Source of the DNA: Comamonadaceae bacterium
GTDB taxonomy: Bacteria > Pseudomonadota > Gammaproteobacteria > Burkholderiales > Burkholderiaceae_C
Assembly (NCBI GenBank): GCA_947453645.1
Contig: CANGHG010000004.1
Coordinates: 1-38,667, forward strand
Direction of reading: 5' to 3'
Length of the DNA stretch: 38,667 bases
Shown: positions 16,106 to 20,063 of the stretch, in pieces
Position numbering within the stretch: position 1 is the stretch's first letter
Layout of the letters: each line of letters starts with the position of its first letter
Notes under the pieces: model-generated
Databases searched by the model: none
The model's input: the letters and a program-made list of their open reading frames with translations, nothing else
What the model was told of the DNA's origin: nothing
Program-made: the position numbers and the translations under genes

Positions 16106-17002
16106 CTAGCCGCTTTTCTGTGCCAGGGCCACGCCCGGGAGGATGAGCAGTGCGCCCAGCAGATGGTGCAATCCCAAGGGCTCGCTCAACACCCCCCAAG
16201 AAACCACGGCCCCCCACAGCGGCCCCAAATAAAGCACCATGCTGACCCGGCTCGCGCCCAACAGTTGTTGCCCCCAGGCGTAAACGCTGTAAGCCAAGAT
16301 GCCAGGGAACACGCCGACCACCAGCACCATGGCCCCAGCCTGCCAAGTCCAGGCGGGGGTGCTGGGCAGCGTGGCCTCCCAGAGTACAAAGGGCAACACC
16401 ACCAAACACCCGAAAAACGCCATCACCGACAACCTGGCCAGCCCACCCAAGGGTGAGGGCCAGCGTTTTTGCAGCAAAGCGAAGGCTGCCCAGCTGCAGG
16501 CGGCCAGCAAGATGAGCGCATCGCCCTCGACCCATTGCACCTCGGACAAGGTGGCCCAATGGCCTTGCACCACCACATGCACCACGCCCAAGAGCGCAAT
16601 CAACACGCCCAAAGCCTGCCACCAGCGCATGCGCTCTTTCAGCCAGAACACCGCAGCCAAACAAATGAACACCGGCGAAGAGGAGTAAATGAGGGAGATG
16701 TTCATGGCCGAGGAGGTTCGAGCCCCAACATACACCCAAGCGCCACAGATCAACATACCAAAAGTGCTTAAAACAAGGTAACGTCGCCAATCTTGTCGAA
16801 TATGGCTTCTAAATTGCCAAATTTCAGCCCTGCACCACCAACCCAAACAGACGGTCACGATCAGCCAGCGCCCCAGCGCCAAACCGTGCGGTTCGATGAC
16901 GCCAGGCGCCATGCGCGCCACCATGAAGTTGAAGGCCCACATGGCGGGCACGCACCAAATGGCCACCGCCGCCCAGCGGCTTGATTGGGCAAGGTCTTTC
17001 AC
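16106..17002 (-). CDS. EamA/DMT-family membrane transporter
   Basis: 298 residues with about ten membrane segments in two EamA repeats (roughly 12-140 and 152-290). The N-terminal helix motif WCVPAMWAFNFMVARM is typical of RhaT/YdcZ-like DMT proteins; the substrate is unknown. The start is a GTG at 17002 whose last bases overlap the dusA stop (GTGA), giving MKDLAQSSRW; an upstream extension to 17263 runs antiparallel-looking, Pro/Gly-rich sequence inside dusA and is excluded. It is therefore the second gene of a dusA operon. It ends at the edge of the structured repeat element. Confidence 0.85.
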   Translation of the reverse strand: MKDLAQSSRWAAVAIWCVPAMWAFNFMVARMAPGVIEPHGLALGRWLIVTVCLGWWCRAEIWQFRSHIRQDWRRYLVLSTFGMLICGAWVYVGARTSSAMNISLIYSSSPVFICLAAVFWLKERMRWWQALGVLIALLGVVHVVVQGHWATLSEVQWVEGDALILLAACSWAAFALLQKRWPSPLGGLARLSVMAFFGCLVVLPFVLWEATLPSTPAWTWQAGAMVLVVGVFPGILAYSVYAWGQQLLGASRVSMVLYLGPLWGAVVSWGVLSEPLGLHHLLGALLILPGVALAQKSG

Positions 17003-17979
17003 AGCTTCAAGGCTTCCTGGGCCAGCAAGGCCACTTCGGCGGCTGGGCGGTCTTTCAGGCGGTGATCGCTCCAAACCTGCCGCCATCTGCGAGCGCCTTT
17101 TTGCCCATGACGCAGGCCCAAGATATGACGCGACACCGCGAACCAGCCCACGCCCAGCTTGGCTTGGGCACCCATGTAGTCCACCATCTGGGCTTCCACC
17201 TGGTCCATGTCCAGTGGCGCTGAAGGGTGGTCCATCAAGCTGTCCCACTCGCTCAAGAACCAAGGTCGGTGATAGGCCTCGCGCCCCACCATGACGCCGT
17301 CCAATTCGCCCAGGTGCTGGGCAATTTGGTCTGAACTGGTGATGCCGCCATTGATGACGAATTTCAAGCCAGGGAAATCAAGCTTGAGGCGCAGCACCCA
17401 TTCGGGCTTCAGGGGCGGAATTTCGCGGTTTTCCTTGGGCGACAGGCCTTGCAGCCAGGCGTTTCGGGCGTGGACGATGAACAAATCACAACCAGCTTGT
17501 GACACCGTACCTACAAAATCGCGCACAAAGTCGTAGCTCTCACCTCGGTCAATGCCAATGCGGTGCTTCACGGTCACGGGGATGCTCACCGCGTCTTTCA
17601 TGGCCTTCACGCCATCGGCAACCAGTTGCGGCTCAGCCATGAGGCAAGCGCCAAATGCGCCGCGCTGCACCCGCTCCGAGGGGCAGCCGCAGTTGAGGTT
17701 GATCTCTTCGTAGCCCCAACGCTCGCCCAGCTTGGCGGCACGGGCCAGGTCGGCAGGCTCGCTGCCGCCCAATTGAAGCGCCACAGGGTGTTCTTCGGGG
17801 TTGAAGTCCAGGTGGCGCGGCACATCGCCATGGATCAGCGCCCCCGTGGTGACCATCTCGGTGTAGAGCAAGGCGTGGCGCGACAACAGGCGGTGGAAAT
17901 ACCGACAGTGGCGGTCGGTCCAGTCCATCATGGGAGCGACGCTGACTGAGTGGTTTTTAACTTCGGACAATTGCTGCAT
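16999..17979 (-). CDS. dusA: tRNA-dihydrouridine(20/20a) synthase DusA
   Basis: 326 residues, an FMN-dependent TIM-barrel enzyme that reduces uridine 20/20a in the tRNA D-loop. The N-terminal SVAPMMDWTDRHCRYFHR (12-29) marks the DusA branch. The catalytic cysteine is Cys99 in NCGCPS, followed by GAFGACLM. KHRIGID and the FMN-phosphate motif INGGI are also present. The start at 17979 (MQQLSEVKN) fits family N-termini. It shares a 4-base overlap with the transporter gene downstream. Confidence 0.96.
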   Translation of the reverse strand: MQQLSEVKNHSVSVAPMMDWTDRHCRYFHRLLSRHALLYTEMVTTGALIHGDVPRHLDFNPEEHPVALQLGGSEPADLARAAKLGERWGYEEINLNCGCPSERVQRGAFGACLMAEPQLVADGVKAMKDAVSIPVTVKHRIGIDRGESYDFVRDFVGTVSQAGCDLFIVHARNAWLQGLSPKENREIPPLKPEWVLRLKLDFPGLKFVINGGITSSDQIAQHLGELDGVMVGREAYHRPWFLSEWDSLMDHPSAPLDMDQVEAQMVDYMGAQAKLGVGWFAVSRHILGLRHGQKGARRWRQVWSDHRLKDRPAAEVALLAQEALKL

Positions 17980-18148
17980 TCAGGCCGTTGTGAACAGGGG
18001 TGAAAGCCCGAATTATGGTCAATCTGAAGAAGAGGCCCGGTTGCGTTCGACGGCGTACAGACCCATAGACCCTGAATACCTAGAGTGAGCTCGTGTGGCT
18101 TTCGCCATATCTCGACCACTTGTCGAGCAACTTCTCTAGGACAACATC

Positions 18149-18466
18149 ATGATGATTCAATTATTAGCGCCTTTGTTACTGGTCGGTGCATTGTTTGGCC
18201 CCGTGGTCAGCATGGCCAAGGACACCACCACAGACACGACTGTCGAGTATGTCGATGATGCAGCCATCACCGCCAAGGTGAAAGCAGCCTTTGCCAAGAA
18301 CAAGCTGGTCAAAGGCCGCGACATCAGCGTGCGCACAGACCATGGCGTGGTGGATTTGACTGGCGAAGTCAAAAGCAAGCGCGAATCCGACAAAGCCACC
18401 GACTTGGCCACCAAGGTGAAATCGGTCAGCGCGGTTCACAACAATCTGACCATCGCACCCAAGTAA
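18149..18466 (+). CDS. Small exported BON-domain protein
   Basis: 105 residues. Residues 1-22 form a signal peptide (MMIQLLAPLLLVGALFGPVVSMA). One BON domain covers about 35-103, with DDAAITAKVKAAFAKNKLV and VVDLTGEVKSKRESDKA, which resemble OsmY-type domains. Such proteins act in the periplasm, often at membranes during osmotic or envelope stress. Two adjacent ATG codons (18149, 18152) both fit an AGGA ribosome site at about 18138. A small hairpin (CTCGAC/GTCGAG, 18111-18127) lies in its 5' leader. The collagen-like gene starts 15 bases downstream, so the two are probably co-transcribed. Confidence 0.85.
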   Translation: MMIQLLAPLLLVGALFGPVVSMAKDTTTDTTVEYVDDAAITAKVKAAFAKNKLVKGRDISVRTDHGVVDLTGEVKSKRESDKATDLATKVKSVSAVHNNLTIAPK

Positions 18467-18481
18467 TCAGGGCTCAAACCC

Positions 18482-19411
18482 ATGTCGTGCCAGATTGCAA
18501 TCAGGACCTTTTGGGCGCTGGGCTGCACGACTTTGATTTTCTTGAGCGCCTACGGGGGGCAAACCGACCCCGCAGAAATCAAAGCAAGGCCAAACCAACC
18601 TATCGCGGTTGCCATGCTCAATATGGCACCCATCAGCGCATGCCCCAGCGGAGGCATCACCATTCAATCAGGCATCGACGTGAATGCCAACCAAATACTT
18701 GAACTCACAGAAGCGAGCAGCACCCAGTATGTGTGCGACGGACTTGACGGCCTGAGTGGCACCAGCAGCCTGAACGCGCTGGTGCTGATCACCAGTGAAG
18801 CTGCTGGGGCTCACTGCGCAACAGGAGGCAGCTTGGTCAGCGTGGGACTGGACAGCAACAGCAACAGCATTCTGGAAAGCGGTGAAATCACCTCTTTCAA
18901 ATACATCTGCAATGGTGCTCGTGGCACGACCGGTGCCACTGGGGCCACTGGCGCAACGGGGGAAACCGGCCCTTCTGGCGGCGGGCTTTCAGCCTATGCC
19001 TACATCTACAACCTCAGCCCCCAAACAGTTGAAATCATGAAAGACAAGCTGTTTGAAAAGAGCGCTGTGTTGTTTGACAGCAATGGCGTGATGGTGGGCG
19101 TGCGGCATGAGCCTGGCTCGGACCAGATCATCATCGACAACAGCGGTGTTTACTATCTGAACTTTTCCATTTCGGGCACTGAACCCAACCAATTTGCTAT
19201 TTTTGTGAATGACAAAGTGGCTGCAGGGTCGGTTTATGGCTCAGGCGCTGGGACTCAGCAAACCTTCGGGCAGGTCATCATTGAACTCAGCCGTGGGGAT
19301 GTGTTGCGCTTGGTGAACTACAGTTCTGACGCGGCCGTTGGCTTGGCCAGTGTGATTGGCGGCACCCAAGCCAATGTGAATGCGTCCATGGTTATCCAAA
19401 AACTCAACTGA
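18482..19411 (+). CDS. Exported collagen-like protein with DUF7151-like repeats and BclA/C1q-like C-terminal domain
   Basis: 309 residues. Order: a signal-like hydrophobic segment (about 8-23), two cysteine-bounded repeats of the form CxxGG...GxDxNxN...E...YxC(D/N)G (Cys54-Cys85 and Cys112-Cys143; I recall this family as DUF7151), seven Gly-X-Y triplets (145-165: GAR, GTT, GAT three times, GET, GPS), then a roughly 140-residue beta-rich domain (170-309) like the trimerising BclA/C1q/TNF fold. This predicts a trimeric surface or secreted stalk protein. Position 24 reads LSAY-GG where related lipoproteins have LSAC-GG. The start is 15 bases after the BON gene; the 3' end overlaps the convergent gene by 8 bases. 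Function is unknown. Confidence 0.85.
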   Translation: MSCQIAIRTFWALGCTTLIFLSAYGGQTDPAEIKARPNQPIAVAMLNMAPISACPSGGITIQSGIDVNANQILELTEASSTQYVCDGLDGLSGTSSLNALVLITSEAAGAHCATGGSLVSVGLDSNSNSILESGEITSFKYICNGARGTTGATGATGATGETGPSGGGLSAYAYIYNLSPQTVEIMKDKLFEKSAVLFDSNGVMVGVRHEPGSDQIIIDNSGVYYLNFSISGTEPNQFAIFVNDKVAAGSVYGSGAGTQQTFGQVIIELSRGDVLRLVNYSSDAAVGLASVIGGTQANVNASMVIQKLN

Positions 19412-20063
19412 ACAAGTCCAGCTGGGGTGAATGCAGCAGGTGATTGGCCACAAATTGCCAAAGCAAGGGGTGGTGCGCGTTCAGGTGCCAGTGGGGTTGC
19501 ATGTATTTCTTGCTGTACCAGTGCGCTTGGCTTTCCAAGTGACAGCCAATGAGGCCGACCGAGCCCTGCACGATGGCCATGGGGTCGCCGTTGGCATAGC
19601 TGGCCATGGTTTGAAACGAGCCGCCCAAAAAGGTCGGGCCATCGTAAAAGTACATCTGGTGGGGCTGACCCAGCCAGTTCACAGGTGCCACCGTGCCATA
19701 GGAAGACCGAATATCGGCCTTGGGACGCTTGATGTACTGCACGCAGCGCGTGCCCTTCAAGAGGTTGAAGTAATAGGCGTCAGCCCAATACGCCCCCATG
19801 CAGATGCCCAGGTACTTGCCGCCGCGCTGCATGTAGGCGCGGATGTCGGCCAAATTGGGCTTCAAAACAGTTCGAAAAGCGGTGGCCTCGCCGTCCCCGC
19901 CCGGGAACACCACCAGGTCCACGTCGTTGAAAAACCCCTCGGCCACCTTGTGCTTGGTGAAGATTTTGATGCGGGCCATGGCCGAGAAGGCCGCAATCAG
20001 ACCATTCACCGAGTCGGCCGAGCAGGTCGGGTGGTGCAAAAAGATGGCAATGGTTTTCTTCAT
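19404..20063 (-). CDS. BPL_N-type glutamine-amidotransferase-like protein
   Basis: 219 residues. It resembles the N-terminal domain of eukaryotic biotin-protein ligase, a class I glutamine-amidotransferase-like fold. VVFPGGDGEA (51-60) is followed by GICMGAYWA with a nucleophile-position Cys88, and CHLESQAHW supplies a His175-x-Glu177 pair, so a Cys-His-Glu triad looks intact. The substrate is unknown and no biotin ligase catalytic domain is present. It starts 22 bases downstream of the quinone-reductase gene and is probably the last gene of the pha operon. Its 3' end overlaps that of the convergent collagen-like gene by 8 bases. Confidence 0.8.
   Translation of the reverse strand: MKKTIAIFLHHPTCSADSVNGLIAAFSAMARIKIFTKHKVAEGFFNDVDLVVFPGGDGEATAFRTVLKPNLADIRAYMQRGGKYLGICMGAYWADAYYFNLLKGTRCVQYIKRPKADIRSSYGTVAPVNWLGQPHQMYFYDGPTFLGGSFQTMASYANGDPMAIVQGSVGLIGCHLESQAHWYSKKYMQPHWHLNAHHPLLWQFVANHLLHSPQLDLFS

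Follow-up and report, generated by a model that had tools for sequence, protein, structure and literature searches.

A short fibre gene joins DUF7151 repeats, collagen-like triplets and a BclA_C head

The window, by which we mean the whole 38,667-nucleotide stretch of Comamonadaceae bacterium DNA that was analysed, carries a 309-aa open reading frame, here called the fibre gene, which encodes two DUF7151 repeats, two collagen-like stretches, and a C-terminal head. The gene is present as a single copy in its assembly (116 contigs totalling 1.59 Mb, with a completeness of 69%), which is probably a metagenome-assembled genome (MAG). The gene, its parts, and its nearest neighbours are as follows.

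16999–17979, reverse strand: dihydrouridine synthase gene (dus), left border of a variable interval
18149–18466, forward strand: BON-domain gene, 15 bp upstream of the fibre gene and its possible operon partner
18482–19411, forward strand: whole fibre gene (P0001), ATG start, 309 aa, DUF7151/collagen-like/BclA_C-head protein (open reading frame and Pfam)
18482–18553, forward strand: signal-like N-terminal segment ending in LSAY(GG) (sequence)
18551–18553, forward strand: Tyr24 codon, at the place of the lipobox Cys of relatives (sequence, comparison)
18641–18742, forward strand: DUF7151 repeat 1, Cys54 to Gly87 (Pfam and sequence)
18677–18712, forward strand: EF-hand-like loop of repeat 1, DVNANQILELTE, residues 66–77 (motif; putative Ca2+ role)
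18740–18766, forward strand: collagen-like linker of three triplets, GLD-GLS-GTS, between the two repeats (sequence, linker register)
18773–18916, forward strand: DUF7151 repeat 2, Pfam residues 98–143, core Cys112 to Gly145 (Pfam and sequence)
18851–18886, forward strand: EF-hand-like loop of repeat 2, DSNSNSILESGE, residues 124–135 (motif; putative Ca2+ role)
18914–18985, forward strand: seven Gly-X-Y triplets plus GGG, residues 145–168 (sequence; below the Pfam Collagen cut-off)
18983–19408, forward strand: BclA_C/C1q-TNF-type C-terminal head, residues 168–309 (Pfam, sequence, predicted fold)
19404–20063, reverse strand: convergent BPL_N-like gene whose end overlaps that of the fibre gene by 8 bp; it borders the variable interval on the right

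Pfam identified DUF7151 (PF23657) twice within residues 54–145 (104.1 bits, E = 3.7e-30, cut-off 27.2), and a profile search of the genome scored it at 65 and 46.4 bits. BclA_C (PF18573) passed narrowly, with 39.3 bits against a cut-off of 38 (41.1 bits in the genome search), while C1q (17.8 vs 23.7 bits) and Collagen (PF01391; 8.6 vs 27.2 bits) remained below their cut-offs in this protein. The second collagen-like stretch is short but regular in its Gly-X-Y pattern, reading GAR-GTT-GAT-GAT-GAT-GET-GPS followed by GGG. An earlier note on this DNA, made from the sequence alone, had described two DUF7151-like repeats in this open reading frame and a BclA/C1q-like C-terminal domain, both of which these searches recover, together with a seven-triplet stalk made mostly of GAT; the number of triplets is correct, but GAT accounts for only three of the seven. 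The linker GLD-GLS-GTS and the tyrosine at the lipobox position were absent from that note. The frame of 309 codons is intact and keeps the four cysteines of the repeats, the two loops, and the core of the head.

The fibre gene and a BON-domain gene fill a variable interval

Around the BPL_N-like gene, which was detected in 36 of the 84 genomes of the genus, loci from 29 congeners were compared. Eight of these 29 loci also include the dus gene, and none of the eight has a fibre gene between dus and the BPL_N-like gene. The interval between the two border genes measures 16–81 bp in six of the eight, 452 bp in another (L179), 944 bp in the last (L175), and 1,425 bp in the window (17980–19404). 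Since the interval varies in this way across congeners, the BON-fibre pair fills a variable interval. The 944-bp interval holds a 276-aa open reading frame that looks MORN-like by eye.

Homologues of the BON-domain protein (56–75% identity) occur in ten congeners, two of which (G229 and G241) also possess a fibre gene, though on a contig other than that of the BON gene, and the pairing with a fibre gene was not seen in the open reading frames around the ten congener BON genes, two of these loci (L209 and L211) being short. The long fibre copies of G229 and G241 are located elsewhere, near two genes that, judged by eye, are common to both. In a further congener (G240, L194:808–1116), a BON gene lies near the BPL_N-like gene in another relative orientation and without a fibre gene. 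Between positions 17900 and 19600, a sigma-70 promoter scan found none, and three terminator-like sites were present against 1.5 expected. The fibre gene has the lowest GC3 (0.642) among nine genes compared, with a GC content of 0.514 in the part that encodes the head; in overall GC content, the BON gene (0.538) lies below the fibre gene (0.548). Elsewhere, a serine recombinase gene (L128:3136–4803) lies 243 bp upstream of the fibre gene of Limnohabitans sp. 15K, and a cut fibre copy in the congener G258 lies near an IS110-type transposase; such neighbours are hints of mobility only.

The head is predicted to adopt the C1q/TNF jelly-roll fold

The head (alignment A4) and the repeat pair (A3) were modelled separately, the head with 46 aligned homologues. 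A full-length alignment (A2) of repeat pairs and heads together was dropped, as repeat pairs fell under head columns. The predicted head has a mean pLDDT of 92.2 and a pTM of 0.88. Its best sequence match among solved structures is 9h38_A (2e-8), the F-BclA tip, with which the model also agrees in structure (Foldseek E = 2.9e-13, TM 0.89, 26–28% identity; VIA Z 22.5, rmsd 1.7 over 135 aligned residues). Matches of similar kind were obtained to BclA (1WCK; Z about 17.5–17.6, rmsd 2.0, 125 aligned, 17–20% sequence identity), to BxpB/ExsF (Z 16.1–17.2), and to C1q (Z 16.1, rmsd 2.2, 125 aligned). By these model comparisons, the head is a predicted jelly roll of the C1q/TNF superfamily. Both a structural match of the C-terminal domain to the C1q/TNF fold and a match of the repeats to DUF7151, on which the earlier note had made its reading depend, were thus found.

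The C-terminal domain of F-BclA is described as a trimeric TNF-like jelly fold at the tip of the F-ENA fibre of Bacillus thuringiensis (PMC11952670). The molecule name FliK given in PDB entry 9h38 is ill-suited, as the associated paper presents the structure as the F-BclA head (PMC11952670); a Bodo saltans virus record bears a name similar to FliK. Seven residues around MKDKLFE (19037–19063, approximately residues 186–194) are inserted in the window head compared with each of the four other heads of alignment A1.

DUF7151 repeats enclose an EF-hand-like loop

The core of the DUF7151 repeat spans 34 residues, CxxGG...GxDxNxNxxLxxxE...CxG, in which two cysteines flank a loop resembling that of EF-hands. 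The core loop motif was defined as [DN]x[DNS]x[DNSG]xx(hydrophobic)xxx[EDQ]. Of the distinct repeats, 31 of 32 in the group of head-bearing or genus proteins have it, as do 36 of 39 in the family group and all six taken from other classes, compared to approximately 1–2% of shuffled sequences; as the repeats are homologous, these counts measure conservation and are not independent evidence. A stricter PROSITE-type EF-hand pattern is matched by 17 of 32, 32 of 39, and five of six repeats, respectively. Tested for an EF-hand-like loop of the kind DxNxNxx[hydrophobic]xxxE, both window repeats fit the core pattern, and repeat 1 also passes the stricter one, which repeat 2 fails. Pfam EF-hand_6 passes on one relative (L002, 28.5 vs 25 bits), where the score is a sum over the protein with no single stretch passing alone and the best stretch lies inside a repeat; EF-hand models stayed below their cut-offs in L003 and L057. 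A Dx[DN]xDG motif is reported to be used by diverse families for Ca2+ binding (PMC3123361). Judged by its motif, the DUF7151 loop probably binds Ca2+.

The model of the repeat pair is moderate (pLDDT 75.0, pTM 0.49), with beta strands surrounding the loop. Searched with this model, solved structures gave no convincing match (best Foldseek E = 3.1), and the best VIA hit was a cystatin-type chain (Z 3.0, rmsd 4.1 over 47 residues); given the moderate model, these values indicate neither a new fold nor likeness to cystatins. DUF7151 is uncommon, exceeding the cut-off in nine of 299 sampled phylum genomes, the window genome included. Matches to the window protein were found in 13 of 200 family genomes, twelve of them through its N-terminal half. 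Our literature search found no paper naming DUF7151.

Linkers between repeats keep a whole-triplet register

Among 52 distinct inter-repeat linkers of up to 140 residues, 46 have a length divisible by three, where one third would be expected (23 of 25 in head-bearing or genus proteins, 20 of 23 in the family, and three of four in other classes), and six break the triplet rule. After the opening CxG, glycine recurs in every third position, up to the third glycine or beyond, in 43 of the 52. The binomial tail of 2e-16 overstates the case, since the linkers are related, and length steps in units of triplets could arise partly from DNA slippage in nine-base units. Collagen lengths that vary in steps of three are also described for the EPcl proteins of Escherichia coli (PMC3368898). 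Pfam Collagen exceeds its cut-off in nine of 18 DUF7151 relatives scanned (L003, L006, L008, L012, L017, L020, L027, L053, and L128) and stays below it in L011 and L055. With a loop between the cysteines and linkers mostly of whole triplets, DUF7151 arrays look like beads along a collagen-type stalk.

Alternatively, the DUF7151 part could be a monomeric spacer whose glycine-rich linkers are merely flexible and form no collagen-type trimer. The subthreshold Collagen scores of the window protein and of L055 are consistent with this reading, as are the propeller-type heads borne by related stalks, for which we know of no trimerisation. It is nonetheless quite unlikely in view of the whole-triplet register of 46 of the 52 linkers, the Collagen matches in half of the relatives scanned, and the C1q/TNF-type head in which the window stalk ends. 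On our preferred collagen-type reading, the window stalk, with seven triplets, GGG, and one proline, may be too short to form a triple helix without the head.

The head occurs in bacteria and viruses, but its fusion to DUF7151 is found only in betaproteobacteria

In a scan of a species-genome collection, the window head shares 62–63% identity with heads of its own genus and a similar 61% with that of Shimazuella soli. The scan recovered 99 relatives, the best 80 of which correspond to 79 loci, 68 of them from Bacillota by record title and 11 from elsewhere (two uncultured Burkholderiales, Limnohabitans, Gallionella, Pseudolysobacter, a member of the Methylococcaceae, two Dependentiae, and three Actinomycetota). 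The two Dependentiae heads are encoded in MAGs (L070 and L115). Among predicted viral structures, a protein of Bodo saltans virus matches best (53% identity, TM 0.89), followed by one of Klosneuvirus KNV1 (37%, TM 0.88). Dependentiae and these giant viruses are associates of protists, Bodo saltans virus being kinetoplastid-infecting.

Head and DUF7151 occur together in four of the 79 open reading frames from the best 80 relatives, 16 of which are cut off at the N-terminus, and in none of 38 head-bearing open reading frames from viral contigs, two of which are cut off likewise; further fusions could be hidden among the cut N-termini. All four fusions are betaproteobacterial, with ten repeats each in L055 and L057, four in Gallionella (L116), and three in Limnohabitans sp. 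15K (L128), and the genus search adds one more that is cut by a contig end (G237). The fusion is therefore seen only in betaproteobacteria, namely in the window, in three of 83 other genus genomes, in Limnohabitans sp. 15K, and in a Gallionella MAG. Wherever the N-terminus is in view, the head-bearing proteins of Bacilli, Dependentiae, and viral contigs lack DUF7151. The protein is matched in five of 84 genus genomes and the head is present in four, the window genome included in both counts; in the fifth (G258), the contig ends before any head. In a sample of 399 family genomes, strong head-profile matches came only from the window and one other genome (G583), with three weaker ones. The G583 protein has a signal-like N-terminus, collagen, and a head, without DUF7151. 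The earlier note, whose reading is partly supported, had called the architecture unusual; it is rare, but not unique, and recurs in this small set of betaproteobacteria. Plasmid records gave one match, to the DUF7151 part only, on a Variovorax replicon.

A quick tree built from 89 heads has a branch (SH-aLRT 87, unstarred) with five of the six fusion heads to the same side of it and Gallionella outside. A more careful tree of 43 of these rows, from which the long-branched G237 was left out, groups four of five fusion heads together (85/81). On the 43-row tree, AU tests rejected neither a single clade of the five fusion heads (p = 0.42) nor a single clade of the 29 Bacillota-type rows (p = 0.065). 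One origin of the DUF7151-head fusion is thus compatible with the AU test, which is not a demonstration of it.

The presence of the head in viral contigs raises the alternative that the fibre gene is a prophage remnant, namely a gene for a tail fibre or virion decoration. Residues 144–308 match PHROG 30509 ("collagen like minor tail"; E = 2.5e-38), and in one viral contig (L033) the head-bearing gene adjoins a major head gene. However, none of the ten window open reading frames scanned is a phage gene, so the neighbourhood is not that of a phage tail fibre, and DUF7151 was absent from the viral open reading frames described above. Phage records gave no match to the window head, although this says little, since a control head from a viral contig (L134) was unmatched there as well. 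We regard a prophage origin as very improbable. The same ten open reading frames include no spore gene, in agreement with the absence of a spore context claimed in the earlier note. The L033 gene (1747–3267) encodes a 506-aa protein that contains the head and lies directly 3′ of the major head protein gene, without a long collagen stretch; similar head-bearing proteins without such a stretch occur in L166, L167, and L170.

The window copy differs from its relatives in anchor and repeat number

Where the N-terminus is intact, 19 of 21 distinct DUF7151 proteins carry a lipobox. The two exceptions are L011, which has a different architecture, and the Gallionella copy (L116), in which an LAACGG segment is out of frame with the repeats. 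The window protein reads LSAYGG in place of the LxxCGG of its relatives, and with tyrosine at the place of the lipobox cysteine, the window copy encodes no lipid-anchored fibre. Fusion copies with both ends in view have 3–10 repeats and a lipobox (in another frame in Gallionella), compared to two repeats in the window. In the Gallionella MAG (L116:5040–5280), the different frames of the lipobox segment and the repeats indicate either a damaged gene or an assembly error.

The C-terminal domains of DUF7151 proteins are diverse. BNR/Asp-box or Sortilin-type domains exceed the cut-off in L002, L003, L004, L008, and L017; others carry a lactonase propeller (L007), FG-GAP (L027), Calx-beta with RCC1 (L231), or a carboxypeptidase-regulatory domain (L234). 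BclA_C is C-terminal in L055, L057, L116, and L128, and falls below the cut-off in L053. Pfam found no other head domain above its cut-off in L006, L009, L011, L012, and L020; in several of the relatives scanned, the open reading frame is cut by the locus end.

With its anchor absent and its beads few, decay is a serious rival explanation for the window copy, which would then be the remnant of a lipid-anchored fibre gene that was once longer, its frame open by chance and without present function. In favour of decay, more repeats and LxxCGG are seen in all four other head-bearing copies whose N-terminal region is in view, few genus genomes have a match to the protein, and the Gallionella copy also looks damaged. 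Against it, the 309-codon frame is intact and its repeat cysteines, loops, and head core are kept, the head model is confident, and the heads of the two long congener copies remain 64–66% identical to that of the window (42% for G237). On balance we consider decay unlikely, while giving it more weight than the other alternatives.

Identity counts of individual repeats bear on how the short form arose. Window repeat 2 is closest to the second repeat in L057 and L116, with ties in L128, while in L055 it is closest to repeat 10, with the second repeat next. Window repeat 1 is closest to the first repeat only in L128, and not in L055, L057, or L116. This pattern makes deletion of middle repeats possible without showing it, and expansion in the relatives fits equally well.

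Comparison with known systems and a proposed model

The closest structural counterpart is F-BclA (9H38) of the B. thuringiensis F-ENA appendage tip, which likewise carries a C-terminal head of the same fold on a collagen-like protein. Unlike the window protein, with its seven triplets, DUF7151 beads, and lack of a spore setting, F-BclA is described as having a 701-residue collagen region and an F-ENA docking motif (PMC11952670). BclA of the Bacillus anthracis exosporium shares the BclA_C domain above the Pfam cut-off and the same fold, whereas the collagen part of the window protein is very short and its setting, with no spore gene among the ten open reading frames scanned, is not that of an exosporium in a spore-forming host. 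DUF7151 proteins of the same family share the N-terminal repeats and mostly whole-triplet linkers; of those listed, 14 are complete at the N-terminus, with 1–8 repeats by pattern and, in 13 of the 14, a lipobox. They differ from the window protein, with its C1q-type head and no lipobox cysteine, in bearing other C-terminal domains where Pfam names one. Among the E. coli prophage tail proteins, EPclB has two collagen stretches split by a globular domain, Pf2 (PMC3368898). A trimerising C-terminal domain caps the collagen of EPclA and EPclB as it may in the window protein, but their described globular domains are different and are accompanied by coiled coils and a prophage setting (PMC3368898).

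We modestly favour a model in which the product of the fibre gene is a short "beaded collagen" fibre protein that is exported, trimerised by its head, furnished with Ca2+ beads, and secreted or periplasmic. From its fold, the BclA_C/C1q-type head would form a trimer and hold three chains in register, which would allow the two Gly-X-Y stretches, one preceding repeat 2 and the other preceding the head, to wind into short triple helices. Each DUF7151 repeat would be a small bead in which two cysteines, probably disulphide-bonded after export, flank the EF-hand-like loop, and Ca2+ probably bound there would stiffen the stalk. In the relatives, a longer stalk of 3–10 beads, tethered through the lipobox cysteine, would hold the head off the membrane as a binding tip. 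The window copy, with tyrosine for that cysteine and two beads, would most likely be a short secreted or periplasmic trimer, its putative export depending on an N-terminus that appears hydrophobic by eye. By analogy, the head may act in adhesion or cell-cell contact, with a surface, a glycan, or a neighbouring cell as its most likely ligand.

More broadly, and with less confidence, we suggest that DUF7151 arrays might constitute a distinct bacterial stalk of Ca2+-loaded, disulphide-closed beads that is lipid-anchored in Gram-negatives and takes interchangeable heads. The betaproteobacterial head is found also on Bacillus spore fibres, in Dependentiae, in viral contigs, and in giant viruses, and a single trimeric tip may thus have been traded between very different surfaces. 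Head and DUF7151 are both known modules, and their combination is seen in few betaproteobacteria; the literature that we found holds no report of this fusion, of the bead-and-triplet reading, or of the spread of the head over bacteria and viruses.

For DUF7151, which Pfam lists among its domains of unknown function, the loop motif and the linker register suggest a testable role as a Ca2+-dependent bead in a collagen-type stalk. Short natural proteins of beads and helices may also offer a possible model for collagen folding without proline-rich helices. Finally, the head links the tip of a spore fibre with surface-type proteins of betaproteobacteria and with giant viruses, and would thereby provide a case for the movement of a tip between stalks.
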